Virus record (IMG/VR): IMGVR_UViG_3300042908_000680
Location: 1 to 64,000 of that record
DNA from: a virus
Direction: 5' to 3' (one strand)
DNA length: 64,000 nucleotides
The translations under genes were made by a program, and so were the position numbers. Shown one piece after another: positions 16,874 through 28,597 of the stretch. Within the stretch, counting starts at the first letter, position 1; every line of letters starts with the position of its first letter. The notes below the pieces were generated by a model. It was given only the letters and a program-made list of their open reading frames with translations. It searched no databases and was not told the origin of the DNA.

Positions 16874-17016
16874 ATATTATCTCCTTGGTTAAATCTCGCT
16901 GACTGTATTGCAATATGTTGAACCGTTTATATGGGGAAGTACAGCCCCATTTGCCCAGCTTATATATTTGCCCTATCTTATCTATTCTGTGCATCTTACC
17001 AAAGACACACTACCCC

Positions 17017-17045
17017 ATTGTACCATATCGACACACTCGACACAA
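17017..17045 (-). promoter_or_regulatory. sigma70-like promoter
   Basis: TTGTGT, 17 nt containing GTCGATA, TACAAT. Serves the 16607-16873 gene, with a leader of about 140 nt. Confidence 0.55.
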
Positions 17046-17088
17046 GTACTTGAGAACAAACGACTTACGTTGTCTTACCATTAGACTT

Positions 17089-17175
17089 GACGTAAGTACT
17101 TGGAAATAAAAGACTTATGAATGATCGCCCCGGCCCCGGTCGCCGCAAACCCTTATCACCAAAGGACTTACGACG
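17089..17175. repeat. two-hairpin repeat element, copy A
   Basis: Imperfect hairpin GTAAGTACTT..AAGACTTAT, a GC core (CGCCCCGGCCCCGG), then hairpin ACCCTTATCACCAAAGGACTTA. It lies between the DUF932 gene and the next transcription unit. The core differs from the other copies. Confidence 0.7.
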
Positions 17176-17194
17176 AATCGGGAGTTCGTGAGAG

Positions 17195-17224
17195 TGGGGA
17201 AGGGGGTTTCCCCCCAACCCCAAC
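17195..17224 (-). terminator. GC-rich hairpin after the DUF932 gene
   Basis: Minus strand GGGGTTGGGGG, loop GAAA, CCCCCTTCCCC begins 12 nt after the stop codon. It is a very stable stem but has no T-run after it, so termination is likely but not certain. Confidence 0.6.
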
Positions 17225-17235
17225 CCTCCCACTAA

Positions 17236-18432
17236 CTAAGCGGTCAGAGCGAAAACCTTTTCGTAATCCTTGTCGGTGAAAGTATCAGCACGACGCAGGA
17301 TCGTTGCCCAGCGGTCTGCATTAGTATCAAGCAGACTGCCAGCGATTTCATCGAACTTCACCCAAGTCTTATTATCAAACTTCTGTCCCGCACGGGTCAG
17401 ACCGTTGATAATACCAAAGAGATTACGCTCTCCAGATTCCATAGTAATATACTGCTCAAGAAACTCAGTTGCTTCACGCTTGCTCAGTTTGTAATCCGAC
17501 GATACCGTAGCCACAACACCCTTCACGCTAGCCTTGCCAGTTTCCAAGGCACGGGTAGCCAGAAACTGCTTGATGCCGGGAGCAAGAAGCGGAATCTGAT
17601 CTTGGATATTATGAGCGATTTCCGTTTTCAGAACAGCGAGGTCGATATTGCCACGGTGAACGCGGCGAATCTTCTCACCCTTAGTCTGACCCCAGATGCA
17701 ACCGTTCATACAGATGGCACGAAAAAGGCTAGGCGTCTGGCTAATGCGGCGAGTGCCGATTTCGCAGTTGCCCACACTAATCATTCCACCATAATCACTA
17801 TCGTCAGCACCGTAGTCCATGATAGTATCGGGGATAAGGATATTGCCATAGATAGTATCCTCATCGCCACGCCAGTGACTGAAACGACCGCCGGGAACAA
17901 ACTCCGACAGGGTTTCCAGATACCAGCGATTATCCACTGGAGCATATTGCTCAGTCACGAACGCACGGCAAGTACCATCCGTATATGTACGGAGTCGGAA
18001 CTTCTTATCGGCGTCGATTCGACGCAGAGCATTGTTGCCAACGTATGCCATCGTGTCAGCATCCGCAAGATCGAAGTTTTCGATATTACGCATCTCACGA
18101 AGGAACGAGGACGAGGTAACACCCACGCGAACGCTAAACTGTTCAATGGCGTGGTCCGTAGGGCGAAACTCTCGTCCATCGTTCAACTTCAAAAAGAATC
18201 CTTTATCATTACCAACACAGGTAATGTTCTTACGCTCAGTCAGAATATCTTCGCGGTTCTCCACAGCGACGTTGGCATCTTGCATGACCTGCTCGTAGGT
18301 CTTGGTCTTTGCCCACCAATCCTTGTGAACATGCGTACCCTTCTCAAAACCAGTGCCAGTAGCACCAGTGAGAGTACGAACAAAATCGCCTTCGCTCGGC
18401 TTGCTCTGAATCGTCAACTTATCGTAACTCAT
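17236..18432 (-). CDS. DUF932 phage/plasmid-like protein
   Basis: 398 aa from MSYDKLTIQSKPSEGDF; AGGAG before this ATG sets the start. Family signs are GREFRPTDHAIEQFSVRVGV, the VDNRWYLETLSEFVPGGRF segment, a central RAICMNGCIWG and the C-terminal NRWATILRRADTFT-like helices. DUF932 proteins occur in phages and plasmids; their role is not established, though links to replication or anti-defence have been proposed. GC-rich codon use and a near-perfect promoter suggest it is one of the most expressed early genes. The long reverse frame inside it is a by-product of codon bias. Confidence 0.85.
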   Translation of the reverse strand: MSYDKLTIQSKPSEGDFVRTLTGATGTGFEKGTHVHKDWWAKTKTYEQVMQDANVAVENREDILTERKNITCVGNDKGFFLKLNDGREFRPTDHAIEQFSVRVGVTSSSFLREMRNIENFDLADADTMAYVGNNALRRIDADKKFRLRTYTDGTCRAFVTEQYAPVDNRWYLETLSEFVPGGRFSHWRGDEDTIYGNILIPDTIMDYGADDSDYGGMISVGNCEIGTRRISQTPSLFRAICMNGCIWGQTKGEKIRRVHRGNIDLAVLKTEIAHNIQDQIPLLAPGIKQFLATRALETGKASVKGVVATVSSDYKLSKREATEFLEQYITMESGERNLFGIINGLTRAGQKFDNKTWVKFDEIAGSLLDTNADRWATILRRADTFTDKDYEKVFALTA

Positions 18433-18468
18433 TATCAATCTCCTAGTAGTGGGTTATCAACTTCTCGT

Positions 18469-18496
18469 ATTATACAGGATCACTCGTCGTTGTCAA
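18469..18496 (-). promoter_or_regulatory. sigma70-like promoter for the DUF932 gene
   Basis: TTGACA, 16 nt, TATAAT: full consensus in both boxes. The -35 box is read as codons in the end of the upstream zinc-finger gene. Confidence 0.85.
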
Positions 18497-18710
18497 GGTC
18501 TGGCGGAAACATTTCATCGAAACATTGTCCGCAGATTCCGCTCAACAGTAGTTCACGTTCATTCATAGAAAGATAGTGCAGGGCATCTTGAATAGCAAAT
18601 GCACCACTCAGCCAATCGTACATATCATTCTCATTGAACATCAGCACAAACTGACGCCCGCAGTTCTTGCAGAAAGCATCGCACGAAGTATCGTAAACCG
18701 CAGCAACCAT
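18480..18710 (-). CDS. zinc-finger protein
   Basis: 76 aa from MVAAVYDTSCDAFCKNCG, set by AAGGAG 6 nt upstream. CKNCG and CGQC (residues 14-17 and 59-62) form a likely zinc site around a helical middle. The C-terminal PDLDND codons double as the next promoter's -35 region. Confidence 0.65.
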   Translation of the reverse strand: MVAAVYDTSCDAFCKNCGRQFVLMFNENDMYDWLSGAFAIQDALHYLSMNERELLLSGICGQCFDEMFPPDLDNDE

Positions 18711-18729
18711 AACTGTCTCCTTTTCAACC

Positions 18730-18757
18730 ATCATACCCTATATATCGGGCATGTCAA
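18730..18757 (-). promoter_or_regulatory. sigma70-like promoter
   Basis: TTGACA, 16 nt containing CCCGATA, TATGAT; fires the zinc-finger gene. Confidence 0.8.
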
Positions 18758-18784
18758 GGGGTCAGCATTAGTTTTTTCTTTTTG

Positions 18785-18868
18785 ACGTAAGTTGTTTGGT
18801 GATAAGGACTTACGATCAGCGGGGCGGGCCGCGTTCGCCCTAAATCCTTGTGGCTAAAGGACTTAGAG
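18785..18868. repeat. two-hairpin repeat element, copy B (inverted core)
   Basis: Outer arms and the TTCGCCCTAAA flank match the other copies, but the 14-nt core reads CGGGGCGGGCCGCG, the exact reverse complement of CGCGGCCCGCCCCG in copies E and G. It sits between a gene end and a promoter. Confidence 0.8.
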
Positions 18869-18896
18869 CGAATCACGGTGCTAGTCTTCCCAAGCA

Positions 18897-19358
18897 TTAT
18901 CCAAACTGAGTCCATCTACGCTCAGTAATAATATCTTTATATTTCTCGCCAGCAGGACTAAGTTGTACCATACCACTTACGCAGAATATACAACCATCTT
19001 CATCTCCCGGCTCATCATATCTATCGCCTTGATCTTCATCGTAATTATCAAAGTATAAAGTCAATCCAGTTTTTTCGTTGAAAGCCTTTGTAAGATTGAT
19101 AATATGATTGTCATACACCTTAACCATTTCCTCTGCAATCTTTTCGCTATCTTCGCTTTCTGGATTATCCAAAGATTCTAAGATATTCTCTTTGAACTGA
19201 TCGGGATCGCTCCACGACATCCAACATCCAATACTATTCCAACCCACAGAATCAAAATACTTTTCCTTTTCAATAGCCGCTATTTCATCTGGACAAATCT
19301 TTTTCAGTTCATCGTATGGAATAACATAACTACTTACCGCATAACTACCCATACCCAT
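18897..19358 (-). CDS. hypothetical acidic protein
   Basis: 153 aa from MGMGSYAVSSYVIPYDELKK; AGGAG 8 nt upstream sets the start. Features are GWNSIGCWMSWSDPDQFKEN and an acidic loop (DNYDEDQGDRYDEPGDEDGC). No known family. Confidence 0.65.
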   Translation of the reverse strand: MGMGSYAVSSYVIPYDELKKICPDEIAAIEKEKYFDSVGWNSIGCWMSWSDPDQFKENILESLDNPESEDSEKIAEEMVKVYDNHIINLTKAFNEKTGLTLYFDNYDEDQGDRYDEPGDEDGCIFCVSGMVQLSPAGEKYKDIITERRWTQFG

Positions 19359-19360
19359 GA

Positions 19361-19549
19361 TTAGCACTCCTGAGTTTCTATGTATGTTTTACCAGTAGCA
19401 GTTTCGTATACTTCAGAAATCGCCCACGATTCCATATGTACAGTATTTTCATCTGGATACTGTGGGAGTAAAATGCCACACTTTTTAATAGCATCCTCAA
19501 TAGAGTTACAGTCTCGCATAACAGCATTGATAGTAACGTAATGGTACAT
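19361..19549 (-). CDS. hypothetical protein
   Basis: 62 aa from MYHYVTINAVMRDCNSIEDA, set by AAAGGT 5 nt upstream. The gene ends 2 nt before the next start. Contains VHMESWAISEVYETATG; unknown. Confidence 0.6.
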   Translation of the reverse strand: MYHYVTINAVMRDCNSIEDAIKKCGILLPQYPDENTVHMESWAISEVYETATGKTYIETQEC

Positions 19550-19550
19550 A

Positions 19551-19760
19551 TTAGACCTTTGAGTAGTAGTTACTGAAAATATCATCCCACGTTGGAAACT
19601 CGTAGAAAGGATCTCCCTCGTTTACACACGCTCCCGTTTTCTGGTTGTAAACGTCATAGAAAGATACATTACGAGTATCCATATCAGCCCAAGAATCATA
19701 ACACGCATAAATATCATACTGTACATCATCCATAACATAGGTGGCTACTTTCTCGTTCAT
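19551..19760 (-). CDS. hypothetical protein
   Basis: 69 aa, aromatic and acidic (YDIYACYDSWADMDTRNVSF), ending FPTWDDIFSNYYSKV. AGGAGATAGTAT precedes the start. Unknown. Confidence 0.6.
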   Translation of the reverse strand: MNEKVATYVMDDVQYDIYACYDSWADMDTRNVSFYDVYNQKTGACVNEGDPFYEFPTWDDIFSNYYSKV

Positions 19761-19822
19761 AATATACTATCTCCTAAATGGTTGGGGGCGTGTTGACTTT
19801 TAGTATTCAAACAACGTCCTAT

Positions 19823-19879
19823 TTATTCTTCTGTAAACAGCATACTCCAAACGAAAATCATAATCATTAGTTCTATCAA
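19823..19879 (-). CDS. possible 18-aa membrane peptide
   Basis: TTG start 4 nt after AGGGAGG reads MIELMIMIFVWSMLFTEE, a single hydrophobic helix. It lies in the gap after tRNA-Ile. Real expression is uncertain. Confidence 0.25.
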   Translation of the reverse strand: MIELMIMIFVWSMLFTEE

Positions 19880-19911
19880 GGAACCTCCCTAGTGTGATGA
19901 TAACAACACAA

Positions 19912-19987
19912 TAGGGCGAGTAGGAGTCGAACCTACCTATGAACACCTTATAAGAGTGTCGGATGCAACCGGCTTACCTTTCGCCCC
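19912..19987 (-). tRNA. tRNA-Ile(TAT)
   Basis: 76 nt: acceptor GGGGCGA/TCGCCCT (first pair G-U), anticodon stem ACACT/GGTGT, loop CTTATAA giving anticodon TAT (reads AUA), T-arm GTAGGTTCGACTCCTAC. Most bacteria and phages read AUA with a CAT tRNA modified to lysidine; an encoded TAT avoids that need. Confidence 0.9.
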
Positions 19988-20009
19988 ATAGATACGGGTG
20001 ACGCATAGT

Positions 20010-20038
20010 ATTGTACCACACGCCACCCGTACACTCAA
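20010..20038 (-). promoter_or_regulatory. sigma70-like promoter for tRNA-Ile
   Basis: TTGAGT, 17 nt, TACAAT, ending 23 nt before the tRNA. Confidence 0.6.
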
Positions 20039-20045
20039 GGGAGAA

Positions 20046-20258
20046 TCAACGATAGCACTTCGTTTCAATCATCTTGTCGCACAGCAGAGTACGCACAGTC
20101 TGATCCATAGAACGAACCACGGCATATCGACCATTAGGGCCAGTACCAACACGCAGAACACGACCAGTGTGGAACTTCAGTACGTTCTTAGTACCGTGCA
20201 GAGGATACTTACACTTGATATGACGATCCTTACGCAGACTAGCAAAGTTATTAGACAT
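20046..20258 (-). CDS. small basic protein
   Basis: 70 aa from MSNNFASLRKDRHIKCKYPL, with GGGAGAG upstream (a second ATG directly before is possible). GRVLRVGTGPNGRYAVVRSM suggests a small beta barrel. High GC and basic charge suggest nucleic-acid binding; unproven. Confidence 0.6.
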   Translation of the reverse strand: MSNNFASLRKDRHIKCKYPLHGTKNVLKFHTGRVLRVGTGPNGRYAVVRSMDQTVRTLLCDKMIETKCYR

Positions 20259-20268
20259 CATCTCTCCC

Positions 20269-20409
20269 TTAGTTAGAAAAAACCATCGACTCAACTTCAG
20301 TGAGGGTCAACACAACCCTTGCACCGTTCTTCTCAAATGTCACACCATCACGACTAATACGCACAACCTTGCCCGCATCAGTCTCGTCGTTCAATCCCAG
20401 AATCTTCAT
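20269..20409 (-). CDS. hypothetical protein, 46 aa
   Basis: From MKILGLNDETDAGKVVRISR, set by GAGGAACGAC before the ATG. Short strand-turn-strand protein (VTFEKNGARVVLTLTEVES). Probably paired with the basic protein gene 10 nt downstream. Confidence 0.55.
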   Translation of the reverse strand: MKILGLNDETDAGKVVRISRDGVTFEKNGARVVLTLTEVESMVFSN

Positions 20410-20434
20410 GTCGTTCCTCATTGTTATCGTAATG

Positions 20435-20791
20435 TCACCACCAACTATCATACACTACCGTTAGTCCGCTGTCAAGTGCTTCTCGGGCTTTCTTGACAAA
20501 CTCCAAGTCCTGCCGACCGTACTCTACATCGCTATTACTACCAAAGAAAAATCCTACGGTGTCTGGCAGACTAGCATTAGTAACATCCTGCTCTAGACTA
20601 TCCAGATCTTCCTTAGTAAGTTCAAGTTGAACGCAGTTGAAAGAGTCATCATTATCGTGGGCGTTAGGGCGACCCTTACTTTCCCACAGATTCTCCATCC
20701 AACCTTGAAGATTAGGATGCTTACGCCAGCAAGCGAGTTCTTCCTTCTCTCCATTGTTGTCAACAGCAAATGCCCACTGATCCAAACCCAT
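20435..20791 (-). CDS. conserved phage protein (MGLDQ family)
   Basis: 118 aa with MGLDQWAFAV at the start, WRKHPNLQGWMENLW, FNCVQLELTKEDL, VGFFFG and a final VYDSWW. I recall this pattern from hypothetical proteins of many large phages, sometimes mislabelled as metabolic enzymes; no function is established. Confidence 0.7.
   Translation of the reverse strand: MGLDQWAFAVDNNGEKEELACWRKHPNLQGWMENLWESKGRPNAHDNDDSFNCVQLELTKEDLDSLEQDVTNASLPDTVGFFFGSNSDVEYGRQDLEFVKKAREALDSGLTVVYDSWW
20447..20475 (-). promoter_or_regulatory. sigma70-like promoter
   Basis: TTGACA, 17 nt, TATGAT, within the last codons of the 20435-20791 gene; fires the 46-aa and 70-aa genes. Confidence 0.75.
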
Positions 20792-20857
20792 TGTAAACTC
20801 CTAGTTAGTGGTTGCCAGAATGGATACTAGGTTACTACTACTTCACCTAGTATCGAC

Positions 20858-20886
20858 ATTCTAGCGTAACGTCTTTAGAAAATCAA
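20858..20886 (-). promoter_or_regulatory. sigma70-like promoter with GTCGATA after the -10
   Basis: TTGATT, 17 nt, TAGAAT followed by GTCGATA. The -35 box overlaps the stop codon of the upstream gene. Confidence 0.65.
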
Positions 20887-21152
20887 GCGGTTCCAACCGC
20901 AACTTCCGCTTCGGCCTTCTTGGCCTTGGGAGCCTTGGGAACCTTGACCTTGGCCGGTTCCTTGATACCAGCAACCCTTGCCCGCCAAACCTTGAAACCC
21001 TGCTCCTTGAGAGTCTCGGTCTTGACAGGATGAACAGCGGCGATATTGCCAATGCCATCGACAGACGCGAGAAGCGTATCACGAACAGCCTGCGGCTCAA
21101 TACCAACCGGCGAATCAGTCACAATATCAACAACAAACGTAAACTTCTGCAT
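20883..21152 (-). CDS. small protein with Lys/Ala/Pro tail
   Basis: 89 aa. A ferredoxin-like N-terminal part (MQKFTFVVDIVTDSPVGIEP, then LLASVDGIGNIAAVHPVKTE) is followed by a histone-H1-like tail (KVKVPKAPKAKKAEAEVAVG). The tail suggests nucleic-acid or ribosome contact. GC-rich and preceded by AGGAG and a strong promoter, so probably abundant. Confidence 0.65.
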   Translation of the reverse strand: MQKFTFVVDIVTDSPVGIEPQAVRDTLLASVDGIGNIAAVHPVKTETLKEQGFKVWRARVAGIKEPAKVKVPKAPKAKKAEAEVAVGTA

Positions 21153-21200
21153 AATAATCTCCTCTTATCAAGTTAGTGTTATCAACCCGTTACTCTAATC

Positions 21201-21228
21201 ATTATACATGTATTATCGGCTCTGTCAA
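21201..21228 (-). promoter_or_regulatory. sigma70-like promoter with GCCGATA spacer
   Basis: TTGACA, 16 nt starting GAGCCGATAA, TATAAT; fires the 20883-21152 gene. Confidence 0.85.
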
Positions 21229-21256
21229 GCGGAATCTTGAAAAAAATTTTTATTGG

Positions 21257-21341
21257 TCATAAGTCTTTGGTGGGTAAGGACTTACGACGAACGCGGCCCG
21301 CCCCCTTGGTCCTAAATCCTTGTGGGATAAGGACTTAAGGC
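21257..21341. repeat. two-hairpin repeat element, copy C
   Basis: Hairpin TAAGTCTTTGGTGGGTAAGG (closing CTTA), core ACGCGGCCCGCCCCC, then hairpin TAAATCCTTGTGGGATAAGG (closing ACTTA). It fills the space between the bL12-like gene and the next promoter. Confidence 0.8.
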
Positions 21342-21346
21342 GAGCT

Positions 21347-21703
21347 TCAAGAGTTAGTGGTCCAGCAATCCATACCACACTTCTTGAGTTCGTCGCACAG
21401 TTTTTGTGCAGATGCTGGGTCAAGAGGAGGAGAGTAGTTAGTTTTAGCGTCGTGCTGACAACTTTCAACCCAATCCTTACTTTCCTTGAGTCCCCAACCG
21501 GTAGCAAATCGGAGAACCTTGATGGCAGCGATCTTATGATCCCAATACTGAGTGTCATACCTGACACCGTTACAGCCAACCAACAACTTCTCGTTGCCAG
21601 TAGCCAGTTCCAGAGCCTTGATGATCCTCTCGTAAAGATCGGGGCTATTGGTTGAAGTAGCAATGCTCACCATCTCACGAATCGTCATGCCAACGTTAAT
21701 CAT
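21347..21703 (-). CDS. ribosomal protein bL12 C-terminal-domain-like protein
   Basis: 118 aa. Residues 57-118 follow the L7/L12 C-terminal domain closely: KIAAIKVLRFATGWGLKESK then DWVES, against KVAVIKAVRxATGLGLKEAK then DLVES in E. coli, and later ASAQKLCDELKKCGMD against the closing helix. That domain recruits translation factors to the ribosome. The N-terminal part (MTIREMVSIATSTNSPDLYE) is not the bL12 dimer domain. It may act in translation control or mimic the stalk. bL12 has been reported in other phages. AAGGAA precedes the start. Confidence 0.8.
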   Translation of the reverse strand: MINVGMTIREMVSIATSTNSPDLYERIIKALELATGNEKLLVGCNGVRYDTQYWDHKIAAIKVLRFATGWGLKESKDWVESCQHDAKTNYSPPLDPASAQKLCDELKKCGMDCWTTNS

Positions 21704-21975
21704 TTGTTTTCCTTATTAGTAATCCAAGGGTAATCGGGAGGGTAATCTTCGCTAGGTGGTTGTGGTTTCTCTTGTCCTAAATCTGGCATCCACCACGGGG
21801 CATCCATATAATCTACATTTCCCCAAGTTTCGCCACAATAGATATTATGAATACAAAACTTATCATCATAGTTTATCTTATATGTACCACGCCACACACC
21901 AATGGCCTCACCATAATAGATGATCTTTTGACCATTAACAGGGCGACGAGGGCCATGAAAACTAATCCATTCCAT
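21700..21975 (-). CDS. hypothetical protein (DUF551-like start)
   Basis: 91 aa. MEWISFHGPRRPVNGQKIIY then YGEAIGVWRG resembles the W-I-S...P-xxGxxVLV opening of DUF551 proteins. Rich in Trp, Tyr and Pro. ATGA overlap with the bL12-like gene. Function unknown. Confidence 0.55.
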   Translation of the reverse strand: MEWISFHGPRRPVNGQKIIYYGEAIGVWRGTYKINYDDKFCIHNIYCGETWGNVDYMDAPWWMPDLGQEKPQPPSEDYPPDYPWITNKENK

Positions 21976-22061
21976 TATTGATTTCTATTCTTATACTGAA
22001 AGTAAAGGAAAGCAACTGCTATTACTGTACCACAGATACATTGTACCATTTCGTTAGTCAT
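21975..22061 (-). CDS. 28-aa membrane microprotein
   Basis: Reads MTNEMVQCICGTVIAVAFLY then FQYKNRNQ; one hydrophobic helix with a basic end. It sits in a chain of overlapping starts and stops (TAATG, ATGA). A Met one codon upstream is also possible. Confidence 0.5.
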   Translation of the reverse strand: MTNEMVQCICGTVIAVAFLYFQYKNRNQ

Positions 22062-22228
22062 CATACACTCATCGCTATTTTGTAGGCAAAGTCAATCAAC
22101 TCTTCCACAGTTATACCATGCTCTGCTGCTAATGTCAAGGCATCTTCTCTGATTGGTTTACAAGCCGCAACCATAGGGCTTTTCAAAACCTTCATCACCT
22201 TCAGCATTGCTTTTTCTTTATCAGTCAT
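22061..22228 (-). CDS. hypothetical protein, 55 aa
   Basis: Starts MTDKEKAMLKVMKVLKSPMV; helical, with ACKPIREDALTLAAEHGITV. It overlaps both neighbours. Its codons contain a promoter at 22110-22138. Confidence 0.55.
   Translation of the reverse strand: MTDKEKAMLKVMKVLKSPMVAACKPIREDALTLAAEHGITVEELIDFAYKIAMSV
22110..22138 (-). promoter_or_regulatory. sigma70-like promoter inside the 55-aa gene
   Basis: TTGACA, 17 nt, TATAAC within coding sequence; could fire the 21975-21347 genes. Confidence 0.4.
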
Positions 22229-22424
22229 TCAATCCATTCCTTATCATTTGGATTAGGTTAGAAGCATCACCCAAAGCCGCAGATTCAAAATCATCATCAA
22301 GATTTTCAGCAACGCTATCAAGTATATTCTCAATATTTAATAATGCAATACCAATATCATGAAATGATAAATCATCAATATCAATACTAAGAGCATCTGC
22401 TATTTGTTTCTTAGATATTCTCAT
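22221..22424 (-). CDS. hypothetical protein
   Basis: 67 aa, starting MRISKKQIADALSIDIDDLS. The N-terminus resembles a short helix-turn-helix, the rest is acidic helix. AAAGGAAAAAA precedes the start. A DNA-binding role is a guess. Confidence 0.55.
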   Translation of the reverse strand: MRISKKQIADALSIDIDDLSFHDIGIALLNIENILDSVAENLDDDFESAALGDASNLIQMIRNGLND

Positions 22425-22515
22425 TTTTTTCCTTTGTATTATAAACCAGCGAATCTTTTACGCCCCGATTCTTATAACCCACGCCTATAACGTTCAAGGC
22501 TTGGAAACCGTTCAC
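22411..22515 (-). CDS. possible 34-aa leader peptide after the tRNA-like RNA
   Basis: A GTG start 5 nt after GGGAGGA opens a 34-codon frame (VNGFQALNVIGVGYKNRGVK onward) that overlaps the next gene start by 14 nt. It lies 92 nt beyond the structured RNA. It may be a small gene or a translated leader coupling to the 22221-22424 gene. Confidence 0.4.
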   Translation of the reverse strand: MNGFQALNVIGVGYKNRGVKDSLVYNTKEKNENI

Positions 22516-22606
22516 GGAAATCCTCCCTGCAAAGAAATTAGTTTGCTAGCAACAACTAGTATATCTTTGGTCTGGCTCTTGGTAACGGTTACTGGTTGTA
22601 TTATAT

Positions 22607-22738
22607 TGTGTGTCGGGAATCCAACCCGATAGAGAGCAGCATAAGCCTTCCCATAGCCTAGGTCGGCAACCCCATACATCCATTAGATGCAGACGCTGTT
22701 TGCTGGGCTATCTCTCTAGTAGCGGCAACTACCACACA
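22607..22738 (-). ncRNA. structured RNA with tRNA-like four-way junction, unidentified
   Basis: 132 nt with four contiguous helices and no unpaired bases at the junction: closing stem TGTGTG/CACACA; a D-arm-like hairpin GTAG-TTGCCG-CTAC; a long arm opened by TAGAGAG/CTCTCTA and continued by CAGCA/TGCTG; and a T-arm-like hairpin TCGGG-TTGGATT-CCCGA. The bulge ATAGCC in the long arm can pair with GGCTAT further in (pseudoknot). A smaller hairpin TGCATC/GATGTA lies at its tip. A promoter stands 26 nt upstream. It is not a normal tRNA: no anticodon arm, no GG in the D loop, and G instead of C at the T-loop position 56. It is not the tmRNA, which is elsewhere. Confidence 0.7.
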
Positions 22739-22763
22739 TAAGTTTGTTTTGTCTTACTCCCTC

Positions 22764-22791
22764 ATTCTACACTATGTTATCGGCTTGTCAA
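22764..22791 (-). promoter_or_regulatory. sigma70-like promoter for the tRNA-like RNA
   Basis: TTGACA, 16 nt (AGCCGATAACATAGTG), TAGAAT. The -35 box overlaps the stop codon of the upstream gene. Confidence 0.8.
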
Positions 22792-23198
22792 GGGGCAATC
22801 TTTAGAGGATTCAAAATATCTTGCCTACATTCATTATAGAACACACCCTTTGATGTAAGGTGAAGGATGTCAAATGCAAGACCGTCAATGTTTCTTCCTG
22901 ACCAAGTATGCCAGTATGGGAGTTTCCTAGGGTCATACTTTAGGTGAGTAGAATATGAGGGGATATATGAATCATCATATTTAAATCCATCCTTAAACTT
23001 AATCCATGCACAAACATCCTTATTAGCCCCCATATAAATCTTGTTTGCTACATTACGGTTGTTATATAGAACACAGTTATGGAGTTCAATGATTTGCTCT
23101 TCTGGATGAATATACCAGACCCTCTTAGTTATAGTATCTTTGAACTGCCAGTGCTTATAGTGTTGACCAGCCCCAAGATGAAAACGAACATTAAACAT
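22788..23198 (-). CDS. hypothetical protein
   Basis: 136 aa, strand-rich with many aromatic residues (FHLGAGQHYKHWQFKDTITK, then KYDPRKLPYWHTWSGRNIDG). Its stop codon sits in the promoter of the structured RNA. No family recognised. Confidence 0.65.
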   Translation of the reverse strand: MFNVRFHLGAGQHYKHWQFKDTITKRVWYIHPEEQIIELHNCVLYNNRNVANKIYMGANKDVCAWIKFKDGFKYDDSYIPSYSTHLKYDPRKLPYWHTWSGRNIDGLAFDILHLTSKGVFYNECRQDILNPLKIAP

Positions 23199-23201
23199 AT
23201 A

Positions 23202-23396
23202 TCACCATGCGTAAATGCCAACTCGTTCAATATTAGACTCTAGTTTACCATTCTTGTAGATATAGTCAATAGCAGCATTTTCATCCTCACTAGGTGTGCC
23301 GCCAAGAATATCTTCTGGAATATCTATAAAGAATATATCCCAAGTAAAATCATCGAACAAACAATAATATGTGATATTTCTTATTAGAGTATTCAT
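23202..23396 (-). CDS. hypothetical protein
   Basis: 64 aa, starting MNTLIRNITYYCLFDDFTWD, acidic (GGTPSEDENAAIDYIYKNG). ATGA overlap with the Api92-like gene. Unknown. Confidence 0.6.
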   Translation of the reverse strand: MNTLIRNITYYCLFDDFTWDIFFIDIPEDILGGTPSEDENAAIDYIYKNGKLESNIERVGIYAW

Positions 23397-23884
23397 GCTT
23401 CTTCCTCCATCATCTCAAAGAACTCGTCCATACCATACTCATTCCACAGTGCTACAGGAATAATATCCTGCTTATTATCTATATCACCATATTCAATATA
23501 GTTGTCAATACCATTATCCCAAATGCCACAGTAGGCCATTCCCGGCTCAAAGTATGTAGCACGAACATTATAATCCAACTCTACCAGTTTTTCGTAGAAC
23601 TGAATAGGGGGCGACCATGCGGTATTGAATGACACCACAACCTTACCATCTTCAATCTTAGCAGGATCGTAGTATTCATCCTTGCCAAAGTCCCACTTGG
23701 TTCCCCAGTTATTGCAACACCAGTTATACCAACGCGGATTTGGCCCATCATCTTCATAATATCCTTCGGGAACTGGCAAGTAATGCTCACACGTTTTGCC
23801 AGAGTTATAGGCATCAACAAACTCTTGCAACTTCGCAGGATCGCTATGGGAAATATACAGATTATTCATGCACCAGTTAGGCAT
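23393..23884 (-). CDS. Api92-like protein with ferredoxin-like domain
   Basis: 163 aa. MPNWCMNNLYISHSDPAKLQ, WCCNNWGTKWDFG, VSFNTAWSPPIQFYEKLV and FEPGMAYCGIW are the ordered motifs of the Api92-like ferredoxin-fold family found in phages and mobile elements. No enzyme activity is known for the family. It heads a coupled group with a one-base overlap at its start. Confidence 0.8.
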   Translation of the reverse strand: MPNWCMNNLYISHSDPAKLQEFVDAYNSGKTCEHYLPVPEGYYEDDGPNPRWYNWCCNNWGTKWDFGKDEYYDPAKIEDGKVVVSFNTAWSPPIQFYEKLVELDYNVRATYFEPGMAYCGIWDNGIDNYIEYGDIDNKQDIIPVALWNEYGMDEFFEMMEEEA

Positions 23885-24033
23885 TAGATGTCTCTTTCTT
23901 CAATGACGTTAGAGGAACCACAATCCATACACTGACAGTTATCATACGGGCCACCAATGACGTTACCATCTTGGTCTACCCATGCGTCATAACCTATACG
24001 ATTACTATCGCACTGTTCACATATCATACTCAT
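23884..24033 (-). CDS. 49-aa zinc-ribbon protein
   Basis: Starts MSMICEQCDSNRIGYDAWVD and has CQCMDCGSSN: two CxxC pairs around a strand turn, the form of a small zinc ribbon. TAATG contact with the Api92-like gene. Confidence 0.65.
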   Translation of the reverse strand: MSMICEQCDSNRIGYDAWVDQDGNVIGGPYDNCQCMDCGSSNVIEERDI

Positions 24034-24205
24034 CACGCCACCTCCTGTCAATAGACTTACGAGTACGTTGACGCTTGGGACGATTATCGAACACCGTATA
24101 TTTGTGTTCTTGGTGTCCCTGCCGCATTTCCCACGGCATAACTTTCTTGATTTTGATTACGTTGCGGCGTGGCCGAGTATCGTCGTTGTTGTGGAGGGTA
24201 ATCAT
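24017..24205 (-). CDS. small basic protein (overlapping frame)
   Basis: 62 aa, very basic (KIKKVMPWEMRQGHQEHKYT, PKRQRTRKSIDRRWRDEY). It overlaps the 3' part of the 24084-24410 gene by 122 nt in another frame and lacks a good ribosome-binding site. It ends inside the start of the zinc-ribbon gene, as real genes here do. An internal promoter at 24272 could serve it. Confidence 0.4.
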   Translation of the reverse strand: MITLHNNDDTRPRRNVIKIKKVMPWEMRQGHQEHKYTVFDNRPKRQRTRKSIDRRWRDEYDM

Positions 24206-24410
24206 ACCATATTCCGTTTTCGTGTTGATAGTAAACTTTGTCAGTATTAGGATCGTAAGCCATCAGACAGTATTGTATAGGATAGTTCGTCTTTGTCAAG
24301 ACCTCAGTTTTAGATATTTGAGGGATTTTTATATTTCCAGATTGAACATCCTTAAAGCCCGTATACACCAATCCACAAATCGTGATAATCACGCCAATCC
24401 ACTGAATCAT
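24084..24410 (-). CDS. membrane-anchored protein with Gln/Asn-rich tail
   Basis: 108 aa from MIQWIGVIITICGLVYTGFK; AAGGAG lies upstream. One N-terminal membrane helix, a polar body (YDPNTDKVYYQHENGIWYDY) and a low-complexity tail rich in Gln, Arg and Asn. Function unknown. Confidence 0.55.
   Translation of the reverse strand: MIQWIGVIITICGLVYTGFKDVQSGNIKIPQISKTEVLTKTNYPIQYCLMAYDPNTDKVYYQHENGIWYDYPPQQRRYSATPQRNQNQESYAVGNAAGTPRTQIYGVR
24272..24299 (-). promoter_or_regulatory. sigma70-like promoter inside the 24084-24410 gene
   Basis: TTGACA, 16 nt, TACAAT within the coding frame. A transcript from here could start translation at MAYDPN of the same frame or at the basic protein. Confidence 0.55.
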
Positions 24411-24429
24411 GATACCTTTCTCCTTTTTC

Positions 24430-24457
24430 ATATAAGGATTATCGGCAGTCTGTTCAA
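24430..24457 (-). promoter_or_regulatory. sigma70-like promoter with GCCGATA spacer
   Basis: TTGAAC, 16 nt (AGACTGCCGATAATCC), TTATAT; 20 nt before the membrane-anchored gene. Confidence 0.6.
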
Positions 24458-24503
24458 GAAACTTTAGGCTGGCTGACTACCCCTGCGAAAATGATCGGGC
24501 TTG

Positions 24504-24653
24504 TTAGGCAAAGACAACCTTATATTCCGCAGTCTTTTCAACCCACACATTTTGCCCATATTTCTCAGTTGCCTTAACATACGCTTCAAACTGGCTAGGG
24601 GATGATACATACCCCGCAAACCGGTTATTCTTCCAAACTCTCCATACATACAT
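24504..24653 (-). CDS. hypothetical protein, 49 aa
   Basis: From MYVWRVWKNNRFAGYVSSPS, with QFEAYVKATEKYGQNVWVEK after. AGGAG 7 nt upstream, balanced composition and regular strand-helix pattern mark this frame as the real one; a longer overlapping frame (24464-24649) reads as Arg-rich noise. Function unknown. Confidence 0.7.
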   Translation of the reverse strand: MYVWRVWKNNRFAGYVSSPSQFEAYVKATEKYGQNVWVEKTAEYKVVFA

Positions 24654-24674
24654 AACTGTTTCTCCTATATACGT

Positions 24675-24702
24675 ACTCTACCATAACTATCGGTCAAGTC
24701 AA
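24675..24702 (-). promoter_or_regulatory. sigma70-like promoter with ACCGATA spacer
   Basis: TTGACT, 16 nt (TGACCGATAGTTATGG), TAGAGT; fires the 49-aa gene. Confidence 0.65.
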
Positions 24703-24720
24703 GACTCTATCTTTAATGAT

Positions 24721-24805
24721 CCTAAGTCTATATTCTGTAAGGATTTACGTCAAATCTCCCCGGCCCCGCTCACCATAACTCTAATGGCGGCAAGGGTTTA
24801 CGTCA
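24721..24805. repeat. two-hairpin repeat element, copy D
   Basis: CTAAGTCTATATTCTGTAAG and GATTTACG, core CTCCCCGGCCCCG, then a degenerate right hairpin ending AAGGGTTTACG. It touches the stop codon of the 24803-25030 gene. Confidence 0.7.
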
Positions 24806-25030
24806 CATTGTCCAACCAGCTTCGGCGGCAACTAGTTTAGTGGGAATAACAATAGTATCCGGTTTTGCTGTGGCATAATCTTTCATACCACGCTCGTCTA
24901 TATAAAAGTGTTCATCTAGTACGTCAAACTTATTAGTTTCCCCTAGTGCTACAACAGCGGCCTCTAGTGGACTTTTATCTGTAGAGTAGATAAGTTCCAA
25001 CGTGTTAGACTTGATATAAAACTTACTCAT
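24803..25030 (-). CDS. hypothetical protein
   Basis: 75 aa from MSKFYIKSNTLELIYSTDKS; the start overlaps the upstream stop (ATGAGTAA). SPLEAAVVALGETNKFDVLD and ...HFYIDERGM suggest a small alpha/beta protein. Unknown. Confidence 0.6.
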   Translation of the reverse strand: MSKFYIKSNTLELIYSTDKSPLEAAVVALGETNKFDVLDEHFYIDERGMKDYATAKPDTIVIPTKLVAAEAGWTM

Positions 25031-25526
25031 AGCAGCAACCGCCCTTTCTGCAAGTGATACAATAACAGTTATCGCTGGTAACGCTTTCATCGCCAGTATC
25101 AATACATACCATAACGGGAAGACCGCCACGCATTACAAATCCTACATTACCGGGATGATCGTCACCAAAATGAAATCCACAATCTTCCATATTACCTATT
25201 AGATTGCATATCTCATCTTCATAATCATACATAATACTTTGACGATCACAACATTCACAACCATTACCGGGACAGCAGATTAGTTCAGCGATTTCTGTGA
25301 TAAAACCCCATCCACTAAGACTCTTATCACTCCTACGAACACGCCCGACTTGACTATAAACATATGGGGCAAGATTATACATAGAGAGTTCAGTCTGGTT
25401 AGCATGTGCAATGTCTGCACTCATTTTAGAATCGAATACCTTGAAGCCCCTATTCTTCATTCCCTTGAGTTTATAGAATGAGGACGCACAACCCGCACCG
25501 CTCTTTTTCTTTACAATAGTATACAT
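25023..25526 (-). CDS. protein-kinase-like fold protein
   Basis: 167 aa from MYTIVKKKSGAGCASSFYKL. FHFGDDHPGNVGF followed by VMVCIDTGDES resembles the catalytic loop and DxG metal-binding segment of kinase-like folds (HxDxxxxN...IDxG), here with His-Pro-Gly-Asn. A Cys cluster CCPGNGCECCD lies between, and the end is CYCITCRKGGCC, so it also binds metal. Such short kinase-like proteins occur in phages without known substrates. GGGAG sets the start. Confidence 0.5.
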   Translation of the reverse strand: MYTIVKKKSGAGCASSFYKLKGMKNRGFKVFDSKMSADIAHANQTELSMYNLAPYVYSQVGRVRRSDKSLSGWGFITEIAELICCPGNGCECCDRQSIMYDYEDEICNLIGNMEDCGFHFGDDHPGNVGFVMRGGLPVMVCIDTGDESVTSDNCYCITCRKGGCCYE

Positions 25527-25528
25527 AA

Positions 25529-25747
25529 TCAACTCCCAAGGCTAATGAGTACGGAATCGTCCAGACCGCAAAAATCAATAGTAATATCTAATACTTGTTC
25601 AAGCATGGCCTTACTAATCAAGGTATCCTCATTAGTTCCAAATGAAATATCACTATGGCATATTTCTTCTATAACATGATCATAATCTAAAGTATTCTGC
25701 TCACAAACATCGGCAAGTGTAACGCAGTCGTATATAAAAACTTTCAT
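25529..25747 (-). CDS. hypothetical protein
   Basis: 72 aa, acidic helix-rich (ADVCEQNTLDYDHVIEEICH). The gene ends 2 nt before the kinase-like gene. Unknown. Confidence 0.6.
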   Translation of the reverse strand: MKVFIYDCVTLADVCEQNTLDYDHVIEEICHSDISFGTNEDTLISKAMLEQVLDITIDFCGLDDSVLISLGS

Positions 25748-25755
25748 ATTTATCC

Positions 25756-26460
25756 TTAGTGAGAGGGAAACAACACGTTAGCCAAACCCTTGACGCACAG
25801 ATTACAGTCTACACTACCCTTCGTCGGTGTGCAAGTGACAACGCCACGACCACGACGGATTTCGGGGCAAGTGATAAACTTCGTACCATTTAGCACGACG
25901 AGTTTGGGCAGACTGTTACGCCACTCAGCAGCAGCGGCTTTACGCTTGGGACGCTTCTTAGCAATCTTTTGATCACTATCGCACCACGCGAACAGTTTGA
26001 ACCCTTGAGCCTTTGCCTCATTCATATCATCGTCATTGTGGATACTAGCATATACATTCATATACTTTTCAAATGCCACAAGGCGACTATCGTAGATATG
26101 AGTATAAAACCACATATCGGGCAATGATTTACCTTCCGATATGATACTCTCACAAGCCCACGTTACATTCTCAACATAGTTGGTATCCAACTCACCATTG
26201 AGAAACCAATCGCCACGCTCATGCCAACGAATAGACTTCTCTTTACGAATCGCTTCCAGAATCATAGCACGAATACGATTCTTTTCTGTGATAAGATTCT
26301 GCATACCAGCAGGACGCACGTTAGGATACATTTTCTCGGTTTGCTCTGCATAGCAACCGTCACCAAGAAATGCACAACTAGGTGGGCAAGTATCACCCAC
26401 GGGACGCGACACCACCAAACAACCCTTGCCAAGTTTATCGTTACCGTCTGCAACTTTCAT
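25756..26460 (-). CDS. GP88-like phage protein
   Basis: 234 aa. The N-terminus has GDTCPPSCAFLGDGCYAEQT, the Cys cluster of the mycobacteriophage gp88-type family; RWHERGDWF follows, and the C-terminus has CTPTKGSVDCNLC. The Cys sites probably hold an iron-sulfur cluster or zinc. The family's biochemical role is not established. Strong promoter and GC-rich codons point to high expression. Confidence 0.8.
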   Translation of the reverse strand: MKVADGNDKLGKGCLVVSRPVGDTCPPSCAFLGDGCYAEQTEKMYPNVRPAGMQNLITEKNRIRAMILEAIRKEKSIRWHERGDWFLNGELDTNYVENVTWACESIISEGKSLPDMWFYTHIYDSRLVAFEKYMNVYASIHNDDDMNEAKAQGFKLFAWCDSDQKIAKKRPKRKAAAAEWRNSLPKLVVLNGTKFITCPEIRRGRGVVTCTPTKGSVDCNLCVKGLANVLFPSH

Positions 26461-26483
26461 AACTTTCTCCTGTGTATGCCATC

Positions 26484-26511
26484 ATTCTACACTCTATATC
26501 GGCACGGTCAA
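26484..26511 (-). promoter_or_regulatory. sigma70-like promoter with GCCGATA spacer
   Basis: TTGACC, 16 nt (GTGCCGATATAGAGTG), TAGAAT; 23 nt before the GP88-like gene. Confidence 0.75.
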
Positions 26512-26552
26512 GGGGAAATATTTAGCAGTTGTTGCAAAAAATGAAATAACTG

Positions 26553-26627
26553 AATCCTAGGGCATTTGGCACGAAAAACGCGGCCCGCCCCGTTGTTGCT
26601 AAATCCTTGAGAGATAAGGACTTACGA
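26553..26627. repeat. two-hairpin repeat element, copy E
   Basis: Left part is ATTTGGCACGAAAA instead of a hairpin; core CGCGGCCCGCCCCG; right hairpin CTAAATCCTTGAGAGATAAG and GACTTACG. Lies between tRNA-Asp and the next promoter. Confidence 0.75.
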
Positions 26628-26635
26628 AAAGATAA

Positions 26636-26709
26636 CGAGAATGACGGGACTTGAACCCGCAACCTCTAGCGTGACAGGCTAGCGATCTAACCAATTGATC
26701 TACATTCCC
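26636..26709 (-). tRNA. tRNA-Asp(GTC)
   Basis: 74 nt: acceptor GGGAATG/CATTCTC, anticodon stem CTAGC/GCTAG, loop CTGTCAC (anticodon GTC), T-arm GCGGGTTCAAGTCCCGT, discriminator G as expected for Asp. Confidence 0.93.
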
Positions 26710-26713
26710 AAAA

Positions 26714-26785
26714 TGACCCCACAGGGAATCGAACCCTGATTCTCGGAGCGAAAATCCGATTTCCTAACCGTTAGAAGATGGGGCC
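26714..26785 (-). tRNA. tRNA-Glu(TTC)
   Basis: 72 nt: acceptor GGCCCCA/TGGGGTC, anticodon stem TCGGA/TCCGA, loop TTTTCGC (anticodon TTC), T-arm CAGGGTTCGATTCCCTG. Confidence 0.93.
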
Positions 26786-26788
26786 AAG

Positions 26789-26860
26789 CTGGCAAAACAG
26801 GATTCGAACCTATAACCTAGCGGTTAACAGCCGCTTGCACTACCGTTGTGCTATTTGCCA
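26789..26860 (-). tRNA. tRNA-Asn(GTT)
   Basis: 72 nt: acceptor TGGCAAA/TTTGCCA, anticodon stem AGCGG/CCGCT, loop CTGTTAA (anticodon GTT), discriminator G. Confidence 0.93.
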
Positions 26861-26864
26861 ATAT

Positions 26865-26933
26865 TTCGGGACTACGATTCGAACGTAGAAAGACTGATCC
26901 AAAGTCAGTCGTGATACCGTTTCACCATCCCGA
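26865..26933 (-). tRNA. tRNA-Gln(TTG)
   Basis: 69 nt, slightly short: acceptor TCGGGAT/GTCCCGA, anticodon stem ACTGA/TCAGT, loop CTTTGGA (anticodon TTG), T-arm CTACGTTCGAATCGTAG. Confidence 0.9.
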
Positions 26934-26935
26934 AG

Positions 26936-27007
26936 AGCCGACAACAGGACTTGAACCTGTAACCTACTGATTACAAATCAGTGGCTCTACCATTGAGCTA
27001 TGTCGGC
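26936..27007 (-). tRNA. tRNA-Thr(TGT)
   Basis: 72 nt: acceptor GCCGACA/TGTCGGC, anticodon stem ACTGA/TCAGT, loop TTTGTAA (anticodon TGT), T-arm ACAGGTTCAAGTCCTGT. Confidence 0.93.
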
Positions 27008-27019
27008 CACCACCGCAAC

Positions 27020-27163
27020 TCAACCGTCAGCCTCCGAACCATAAATATTGTACCATTCACCACTATCATCTACTACGATAATCTCCTCATCATATACGAT
27101 AAGATCATCATACTCTTCAGTATCGTAAGGGCCGCACCATTTCATGACATTTTCGTTGTACAT
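27020..27163 (-). CDS. hypothetical acidic protein, 47 aa
   Basis: MYNENVMKWCGPYDTEEYDD, then strands ending GEWYNIYGSEADG. It lies between tRNA-Lys and tRNA-Thr and would be cotranscribed with the tRNA cluster. The ribosome-binding site is weak. Confidence 0.5.
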   Translation of the reverse strand: MYNENVMKWCGPYDTEEYDDLIVYDEEIIVVDDSGEWYNIYGSEADG

Positions 27164-27195
27164 AGTATTTAGGGGTTAAAGGAATGGTTTTATCT

Positions 27196-27224
27196 ATTAT
27201 ACTGTATACACACCAAAAAGTCAA
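27196..27224 (-). promoter_or_regulatory. sigma70-like promoter for the five-tRNA cluster
   Basis: TTGACT, 17 nt, TATAAT, immediately after the end of tRNA-Lys. It should fire the 47-aa gene and tRNAs Thr, Gln, Asn, Glu and Asp. Confidence 0.7.
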
Positions 27225-27298
27225 TGAGTCATGTAGGATTCGAACCTACGACCAACGGATTAAAAGTCCGATGCTCTAACCAACTGAGCTAATGACCC
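27225..27298 (-). tRNA. tRNA-Lys(TTT)
   Basis: 74 nt: acceptor GGGTCAT/ATGACTC, D-arm GCTCAGTTGGTTAGAGC, loop CTTTTAA (anticodon TTT), T-arm GTAGGTTCGAATCCTAC, discriminator A. The outer anticodon-stem pair is T-T. Confidence 0.92.
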
Positions 27299-27308
27299 CC
27301 GCGAATCA

Positions 27309-27536
27309 TCAAGTCAAATCTTCATCATTATCCTCAATATCGTCAGTAATATCTTCCGCAATGTTATTGATATACTCTAAATACTCTTTATCAGAATGGC
27401 TCTCTAACCATTGATCCATTAGTTCTCCCGCCATAATATCCTGCAAATACAGGGTAATATCTTCGGGCCACTCATGGAATGGCTTCTTAATAGCGTCCTT
27501 GATTTCCTTACTGGTGTATATTCCGAATATGTTCAT
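27309..27536 (-). CDS. hypothetical acidic protein
   Basis: 75 aa: MNIFGIYTSKEIKDAIKKPF, LYLQDIMAGELMDQWLESHS and an acidic end. Precedes tRNA-Lys in the same transcript. Unknown. Confidence 0.6.
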   Translation of the reverse strand: MNIFGIYTSKEIKDAIKKPFHEWPEDITLYLQDIMAGELMDQWLESHSDKEYLEYINNIAEDITDDIEDNDEDLT

Positions 27537-27574
27537 TTCTTCCCTTATAATGTTATCGGTTACTGACTCTTAAT

Positions 27575-27603
27575 AGTTTACTCTAAAATGGTAGGTCTGT
27601 CAA
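27575..27603 (-). promoter_or_regulatory. sigma70-like promoter
   Basis: TTGACA, 17 nt, TAAACT. The boxes are inside or next to the last codons (YDLTDLPF) of the upstream gene. Confidence 0.6.
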
Positions 27604-27759
27604 GTCATACTCTCGCTGACTATCCCCACAGCATCGATCTTCATTCTTTGGGAGAGACTCTCCCCCGCATTTTGCCTGCCTTTTGTATTCTTCCCATTCC
27701 TCCCAAACTACCAAATCTGCCGTTTCCTCACAATGTACCCAATCATCCCATTTTGACAT
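27583..27759 (-). CDS. hypothetical protein, 58 aa
   Basis: From MSKWDDWVHCEETADLVVWE, set by AAGGAG 7 nt upstream. Trp- and Glu-rich, with Cys near the end (AKCGGE, EDRCCGD) that may bind metal. Unknown. Confidence 0.6.
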   Translation of the reverse strand: MSKWDDWVHCEETADLVVWEEWEEYKRQAKCGGESLPKNEDRCCGDSQREYDLTDLPF

Positions 27760-27791
27760 GGTGTAACTCCTTGTACTGTAACGACTTAAGT

Positions 27792-27819
27792 ATCCTAGCA
27801 TATTATCGGCTTTTGTCAA
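27792..27819 (-). promoter_or_regulatory. sigma70-like promoter with GCCGATA spacer
   Basis: TTGACA, 16 nt (AAAGCCGATAATATGC), TAGGAT. Confidence 0.75.
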
Positions 27820-27838
27820 GCCTGACTTTAAACTTTCT

Positions 27839-27919
27839 CTAAGTCTATATATATCAACACTTTACATCAAATCCGGCCCGCCCGCCTAGCCCTAACTCCT
27901 TTGCCCATAAGGACTTAGG
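27839..27919. repeat. two-hairpin repeat element, copy F
   Basis: Degenerate left arm CTAAGTCTATATATATC, core CCGGCCCGCCCGCC, right hairpin CTAACTCCTTTGCCCATAAG and GACTTAGG. Confidence 0.7.
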
Positions 27920-27941
27920 AGAAGGGTCTAGGCAGTGTACA

Positions 27942-28346
27942 TTAAAACAGGTGTGCCACACCAGCCTTGAACAAAAGTTCACCTACAGCTGAACGCCTGC
28001 ACATGTCGCTACGTTCAGCATAGAACTGTCGAAAATCACCGTTACTCATTTCGCATGTAACAAGCGTAGGACTACGCTTAAACTCACTATCATATTGACG
28101 GTAATCACTTGTCCAGTTCAAACGCGAGATTTCAGCCTGACTCAACTTGCGAACACCAACAACCTTGGCGAGATACCTTTCATAGTCGCCCGTTACTGGC
28201 TGGAAGTATCGAAAGTTATATACAGTACCAGCAACAGCATTAGTAAGACTATCATTTACACCCCTATAAATGTTATATAGAAGAAAAACACCAATCGCCG
28301 CAACGGCACAAGCAAAACAAATGCCCAAAGTAAACGCATCATTCAT
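27942..28346 (-). CDS. membrane-anchored protein
   Basis: 134 aa. An N-terminal membrane helix (about residues 7-28) is followed by a soluble domain with YRYFQPVTGDYERYL-like strands, KLSQAEISRLNWTSDYRQYD and RQFYAERSDMCRRS. No known family. One-base overlap with the acidic gene upstream. Confidence 0.6.
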   Translation of the reverse strand: MNDAFTLGICFACAVAAIGVFLLYNIYRGVNDSLTNAVAGTVYNFRYFQPVTGDYERYLAKVVGVRKLSQAEISRLNWTSDYRQYDSEFKRSPTLVTCEMSNGDFRQFYAERSDMCRRSAVGELLFKAGVAHLF

Positions 28347-28597
28347 CAGAAATCCTCCCCATAGTAACCGTAATCCTCATCCGTTCCCCAACCGGCTGAT
28401 TCCATCGCGGAATCGTGATCACCGTCCATGCTGTCATCGTAATCTTCTTCGCTATCATAATCTTCACCATGATTTTCATCGTAGTATTCTACAATCTGCT
28501 GGTGAAAATCGTCATGATCATCATAGTTAGCGTCGATATCGTACATGTCATCCTCATAAGAGTTATCGGGATCGTAGCAGGGATCTGGGTGACTCAT
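28346..28597 (-). CDS. very acidic low-complexity protein
   Basis: 83 aa from MSHPDPCYDPDNSYEDDMYD; about half the residues are Asp, Glu or Tyr. AAGGAG sits 8 nt before this ATG; an ATG two codons earlier is too close. Such acidic proteins can mimic DNA, but there is no other evidence here. Confidence 0.6.
   Translation of the reverse strand: MSHPDPCYDPDNSYEDDMYDIDANYDDHDDFHQQIVEYYDENHGEDYDSEEDYDDSMDGDHDSAMESAGWGTDEDYGYYGEDF

Follow-up and report, generated by a model that had tools for sequence, protein, structure and literature searches.

A 132-nt interval of a 149.5-kb IMG/VR phage record (IMGVR_UViG_3300042908_000680) raises the question of whether it encodes a structured RNA, of what kind, and to what end. 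The window that we analyzed comprises positions 1 to 64,000 of this record. A first-pass annotation of the interval had proposed a new class of phage RNA that perhaps mimics tRNA, and this proposal is borne out in that the stems of the RNA, here designated RNA1, vary with compensation and no Rfam family matches it. The Rfam comparison, suggested at the time as a check, yielded neither a known family, an identity we reject for lack of a match, nor an intron-bearing tRNA.

RNA1 is encoded on the minus strand

The structural elements that had been described from the letters all occur at 22607-22738: the TGTGTG/CACACA and TAGAGAG/CTCTCTA stems, a pair of small hairpins, a four-way junction with no bases to spare, and the pseudoknot of ATAGCC with GGCTAT. 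Homologues supply a compensated pair in the pseudoknot. The strand assignment requires revision. An exact-pattern scan identified five further records with RNA1, four of them with distinct sequences (L087 duplicates L084). Read on the minus strand, these window-type homologues pair in 100% of cells for all 50 proposed pairs (250/250 pair cells standard, pseudoknot included), versus 90% on the plus strand, which the annotation had used. We therefore take the minus strand to be the functional one and reject a plus-strand RNA. The plus-strand reading falls to 90% because one-sided changes, as well as several conserved pairs, that are G-U on the minus strand become A-C mismatches. Every tRNA of the window, and its tmRNA, is encoded on the minus strand. 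Owing to the wrong strand, the D- and T-like arms had been swapped and the T-arm undervalued; the hairpin labeled D-arm-like is in fact the T-like arm TCGGG-TTGGATT-CCCGA. The elements of RNA1 are as follows:

22607-22738, minus strand: RNA1 (subtype 1a), a tRNA-like four-way-junction RNA with a pseudoknotted long arm; homologues and consensus fold
22733-22738, minus strand: 5' strand of P1, acceptor-like, pairs with 22607-22612; two compensated pairs
22719-22732, minus strand: P2, D-like hairpin GTAG-TTGCCG-CTAC; stem invariant in 1a, loop TTGC invariant
22712-22718, minus strand: 5' strand of P3 (TAGAGAG), which closes the base of the long arm with 22630-22636; invariant in 1a, compensated changes in the wider family
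22706-22710, minus strand: 5' strand of the pseudoknot (TAGCC), located in the bulge of P3, partner GGCTA at 22654-22658; compensated C-G to U-A, structure-free alignment
22701-22705, minus strand: 5' strand of P3b (CAGCA), pairs with 22637-22641; consensus fold, wider family
22668-22697, minus strand: P5 hairpin, apical part hypervariable in the wider family, missing from subtype 1d; consensus fold and family comparison
22645-22667, minus strand: P6 hairpin, whose loop makes the pseudoknot; consensus fold, covariation
22613-22629, minus strand: P4, T-like hairpin; C-G to U-G change tolerated only on the minus strand, and the covariance model R1 picks tRNAs

Folding of the single sequence gave z scores of -1.68 (plus) and -2.09 (minus), which by themselves are weak evidence. 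Given the minus-strand alignment and no structure, RNAalifold recovered the same fold. Slid controls of the window-type alignment paired in 30-47% of cells, and three pairs in this set are compensated, two in P1 and one in the pseudoknot.

A family with constant anatomy and covarying stems

Two close relatives of the phage (G003 and G002) have the same promoter, leader and downstream RNA, with the RNA1 slot filled by a different sequence of the same anatomy; in G003 the identical leader precedes a different RNA1 subtype. G011 carries a similar RNA of this anatomy in another setting. The remaining members were gathered through two scans on short conserved stretches, the P5 core and the downstream RNA2; the short-pattern scan also drew in many coding sequences, which were discarded. 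A descriptor search delivered 49 unique members from phage contigs, which comprise L252 and four main subtypes:

Subtype 1a: the window type
Subtype 1b: the commonest
Subtype 1c: T-loops TGCGATT or TGCGAAT
Subtype 1d: shorter, about 107 nt

Across these 49 members the anatomy is constant, consisting of a closing stem, a D-like hairpin, a long arm with a bulge-to-loop pseudoknot (75-120 nt, replacing the anticodon arm) and a T-like hairpin. L121 contains two RNA1 copies in tandem. A covariance model built from subtype 1a only (R1) finds L247 (7.7e-5), L252 (3.2e-4) and L197 (0.0036) at full length, together with weaker others.

The descriptor search requires pairing, and the full pairing rates it returns are biased accordingly; for this reason, we added a motif-only set and a structure-free alignment. 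Selection by a 10-base motif gave 59 matches, approximately 41 of which we judged by eye to be family members. The pseudoknot is kept in all of these, and P3 is intact in each of them except L143, which has a single mismatch. The structure-free test used a MAFFT alignment of 25 members of subtypes 1b and 1c that was not fitted to the structure: 92.3% of its cells pair, compared with 85.0 ± 0.5% in shuffles and 36-44% in slid controls. The pseudoknot pairs in 25/25 sequences, with one position divided between C-G (13) and G-C (12). Compensatory change in the stems, which the first-pass annotation had named as a check, is found here in 21 pairs changed on both sides, including two in the pseudoknot, in addition to the three window-type pairs. 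A further alignment (A7), fitted to the covariance model, was left out of the pair counts. Once homologues are considered, their sequences indicate that the structure is real, far beyond chance, and we assign RNA1 with near certainty to a structural class of tRNA-like four-way junctions with a pseudoknotted arm.

Likeness to tRNA

The fold is a four-way cloverleaf with acceptor-, D- and T-like arms. RNA1 has no anticodon stem-loop, the pseudoknotted arm standing in its place. The T-like arm equals a tRNA T-arm apart from position 56, and P1 and P4 together amount to 11-12 bp in 35/47 members; the T-like arm is tRNA-typical only in 1a, 1c and L252, the P4 loops of 1b and 1d being different. When R1 was run without filters over the window, 10 of the 15 non-self matches fell inside tRNA or tmRNA genes (11 genes, right strand; binomial p ~7e-18), with single matches that are weak (E about 4-6) and rest largely on the T-arm. 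Over the T4 tRNA region, its best nine matches comprised seven sense-strand tRNAs, one antisense match and the 3' part of rnaC. A separate weak R1 match, L251:3233-3318 (minus strand), contains the canonical T-arm GTTGGTTCGAATCCAAC, receives no tRNA call from ARAGORN and is possibly another tRNA-like RNA.

In tRNA geometry, the elbow is closed by a G19-C56 pair (PMC4810234). The earlier remark that RNA1 lacks the D-loop GG and the T-loop C56 proved informative, as on the minus strand a C19-G56 pair of the window subtype could substitute for G19-C56. Within the family, the loops of the D-like and T-like hairpins change in step (TTGC with TTGGATT in 1a, TGAT with TTTGATT in L252, TAGC with TGCGATT in 1c, and ATGC with GCGT or GCAT in 1b). 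From few events, the 19-56 pair may be interpreted as C-G in 1a, A-U in L252 and G-C in 1c, and the loops of 1b as a kissing pair. An encoded CCA is lacking in RNA1. Many members show CCA after P1, but there it is merged with the linker; since the phage's own tRNAs are also without CCA, we dropped an encoded CCA end as a feature.

ARAGORN and Rfam call no tRNA at the RNA1 site. They also call no tmRNA there, whereas the true tmRNA was found at 4159-4507, and RNA1 has no tag-encoding frame. The tmRNA gene (4159-4507, minus strand) is full-length, encodes the tag peptide GETRFALAA and adjoins a tRNA-Ser gene. RNA1 is not a tRNA, a tmRNA or a riboswitch.

A promoter-driven array of structured RNAs

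RNA1 belongs to an array of structured RNA modules driven by a sigma-70 promoter, a context, together with the wide family, beyond what the first-pass annotation could see. The parts surrounding RNA1 are:

22764-22791, minus strand: sigma-70-type promoter of the RNA array, TTGACA-16-TAGAAT; 11/12 consensus matches, best nearby
22739-22763, minus strand: leader ending in ACAAAACAAACTTA, a 5' single-stranded linker; ACAAAC-type 5' flank common to most family members
22596-22602, minus strand: linker AATACAA between RNA1 and RNA2; exact word just 3' of 34/47 family members
22446-22595, minus strand: RNA2, second structured RNA and last module of the array; 47 unique homologues, covarying stems
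22434-22440, minus strand: linker AATACAA after RNA2, ahead of ORF 22221-22424

RNA1 had been credited with its own consensus promoter and with the absence of an open frame. A near-consensus promoter does exist, but the best match is the minus-strand one, which ends 25 bases from the RNA1 start; the plus-strand candidate is weaker (9/12). The absence of a frame holds only loosely: ORFs of 43-55 codons overlap the site on both strands. In other records, arrays are preceded by the same promoter with the same spacing. In the first third of the record, sigma-70-type matches occur on the minus strand only. Nine near-consensus sigma-70 promoters at 14951-32856, all on the minus strand and several with a common GCCGATA in the spacer, likely represent the phage's own promoter family.

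AATACAA often marks the module boundaries, and the exact word also lies just upstream of 21/47 RNA1 family members. RNA1 is upstream of RNA2 in 45/52 loci and downstream in 0/52; a T-rich stretch follows RNA2 in 31/52. Phages differ in module order and content and swap both modules and arms with one another; RNA2 swaps arms itself. At least two other array modules are tRNA-like. One, at L271:995-1092 (minus strand) and also in L242, L272 and L282, qualifies as a tRNA under the Rfam model at 30.3 bits and has a 38-nt insertion on the anticodon side. Another, of about 147 nt, with acceptor GGGGTTAT/ATAACCTC, T-arm CGGGTTTGAATCCCG and long extra arms, occurs in L085, L201:13807-13960 (plus strand) and L223. 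A 54-nt module is also found among the arrays.

Two side observations concern related records. Between RNA1 and RNA2 of L202 lies a short RNA1-like unit (TTCGTGGGTTCAGCC...TAGAGAGTCGATTAATCTA...CACCACGA), seemingly without the long arm, as if that arm were an exchangeable insert. In L085, a Pistol self-cleaving ribozyme (2645-2707, minus strand; 55.7 bits) is situated near a tRNA-Arg gene.

BLAST against INPHARED (50,697 phage records) found nothing like RNA1, and RNA2 and the other modules were likewise unmatched; a large-window megablast led to nothing. None of the proteins neighboring RNA1 belongs to a PHROG of known function. A genome-contig scan returned a single Lake Lanier contig of 4.6 kb from an Alphaproteobacteria bin, which is insufficient to assign a host.

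Possible functions of RNA1

The RNA1 gene lies on the minus strand, immediately behind a promoter, in an array closed by RNA2, and its fold is self-contained and cloverleaf-like. Our data also support the replacement of the anticodon arm by a larger one that is exchangeable in part and in which the pseudoknot is conserved. The reading we favor is that RNA1 is a freestanding, trans-acting, tRNA-scaffolded phage RNA that is excised and whose elbow binds a host factor handling tRNA, which it would inhibit or decoy; we hold this reading tentatively, at slightly less than an even chance. Judged from sequence, action in trans is quite probable, and a tRNA-handling factor is a plausible target that falls just short of an even call. 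P1 and P4 would stack into a helix of tRNA length, and the P2 and P4 loops would dock as an elbow. tRNA-maturation enzymes may excise RNA1 at the single-stranded linkers, producing a stable molecule about 130 nt long. The elbow could then engage a processing, modification or end-repair enzyme, the ribosome, or a tRNA-targeting defense protein; the pseudoknotted arm would contribute specificity, and RNA1 would serve as an inhibitor or decoy during infection.

A broader proposal, possible but on the doubtful side, is that such phages maintain a combinatorial toolkit of RNAs. It would consist of promoter-driven arrays of interchangeable structured cassettes, several of them tRNA-scaffolded with swappable pseudoknotted effector arms replacing the anticodon arm; by exchanging cassettes and arms, these arrays would evolve to inhibit or decoy defenses or host factors that handle tRNA. 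RNA viruses are well known to mimic tRNA, whereas little work has addressed trans-acting tRNA-like RNAs of DNA phages. The shuffling of RNA1 with other structured RNAs by related phages points to an uncharted set of phage RNA tools, and the modular array also contains several other undescribed RNA families. The broad, covarying RNA1 family offers natural variants enough to make structure and function testable, and, if the elbow is functional, it provides a direct handle on the host factor targeted.

The four-way junction is kept across subtypes while the P4 and P2 loops differ in kind, the pseudoknot is the most constant feature, and modules stand head to tail with short linkers. These features would fit an RNA whose tRNA likeness is a processing or stability tag only and whose pseudoknotted arm is functional, with a partner unrelated to tRNA biology. 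However, the paired changes of the two loops suggest selection on the elbow itself, and non-tRNA-like array modules must be released some other way; we consider the tag explanation unlikely, though one to be weighed seriously. It is improbable that RNA1 instead mimics a tRNA-mRNA pair on the ribosome, with the pseudoknot imitating a codon-anticodon helix as in intergenic-region IRESs to stall or redirect translation: the pseudoknot does lie directly past the 8-bp arm beneath the tRNA-like elbow, but further from the junction than an anticodon, and IRES-like coding context is absent.

Bacterial Y RNAs (YrlA) are non-coding RNAs with a tRNA-like domain. In some jumbo phages, TROVE proteins occur with a tRNA-like partner (PMC7824862), so RNA1 could be conceived as the Y-RNA-like partner of a Ro60/TROVE protein, host Ro60 included. 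However, the record holds no TROVE/Ro60 gene by a search that was positive in a control genome, RtcB was not found, and RNA1, unlike YrlA, has no Rfam match; we reject a Y RNA with a phage-encoded Ro60, conclude that on present evidence RNA1 is not a Y RNA, and rate any such partnership as very unlikely. The chance that RNA1 is a self-cleaving ribozyme processing the array is equally small. It has a compact pseudoknotted fold, a Pistol ribozyme is present in L085, and theta ribozymes adjoin phage tRNAs (PMC10879173), but Rfam ribozyme families gave no match at RNA1, the arm tip is mostly hypervariable, and no conserved cleavage site was evident. A cis-acting leader or riboswitch would agree with the location between the promoter and ORF 22221-22424; yet RNA2 and other modules intervene before any gene, and RNA1 holds no constant position before one gene family, the following modules and genes varying among records, which leaves this option a slim prospect indeed. 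Finally, we give almost no credence to, and have rejected, a decayed or intron-bearing tRNA (a tRNA-type T-arm and junction, but no ARAGORN or Rfam tRNA call, no anticodon arm, and strong purifying selection with compensation rather than decay) and an element acting as DNA, such as a recombination site moving cassettes (cassette-like module swapping, but changes tolerated as G-U on one strand only, a mark of RNA).

Relation to known tRNA-like and phage RNAs

The RNA1 family belongs to nothing tested here, and precedents exist both for tRNA-like RNAs and for phage RNAs in the vicinity of tRNA islands; what could prove categorically new is the array, with its exchangeable cassettes of structured RNA. 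With tRNA and the tRNA-like domain of tmRNA, RNA1 shares acceptor-, D- and T-like elements and, in most members, the composite helix of 11-12 bp. It differs from them in the long pseudoknotted arm on the anticodon side, the absence of a tag frame and a junction without linkers.

The pseudoknot of plant-virus tRNA-like structures is located in the acceptor part, whereas that of RNA1 is on the anticodon side. Such structures (e.g., TYMV) combine mimicry of the tRNA elbow with pseudoknotting (PMC4810234); they terminate RNA virus genomes, while RNA1 would be a separate RNA from a DNA phage. GOLLD and ROOL are large, ornate phage RNAs of unknown function that are often found near tRNA islands (PMC12286853). 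They measure 600-800 nt and more, compared with 132 nt for RNA1, and their Rfam models gave no match at RNA1.

The nearest analogue we found is T4 rnaC (species 1 RNA). The function of the T4 stable RNAs C and D is still given as unknown (PMC9697503). Like RNA1, rnaC is phage-encoded, similar in size (139 nt) and located beside tRNA genes; unlike RNA1, its predicted fold has another arm order and no matching pseudoknot. Homology is not supported, because R1 scores only the T-arm part of rnaC, and no better than ordinary tRNAs. In its 3' part, rnaC (T4 record AF158101, 70908-71046, minus strand) carries a canonical tRNA T-arm, CCGGGTTCGAATCCCGG, and may merit a fresh look as a tRNA-like RNA.
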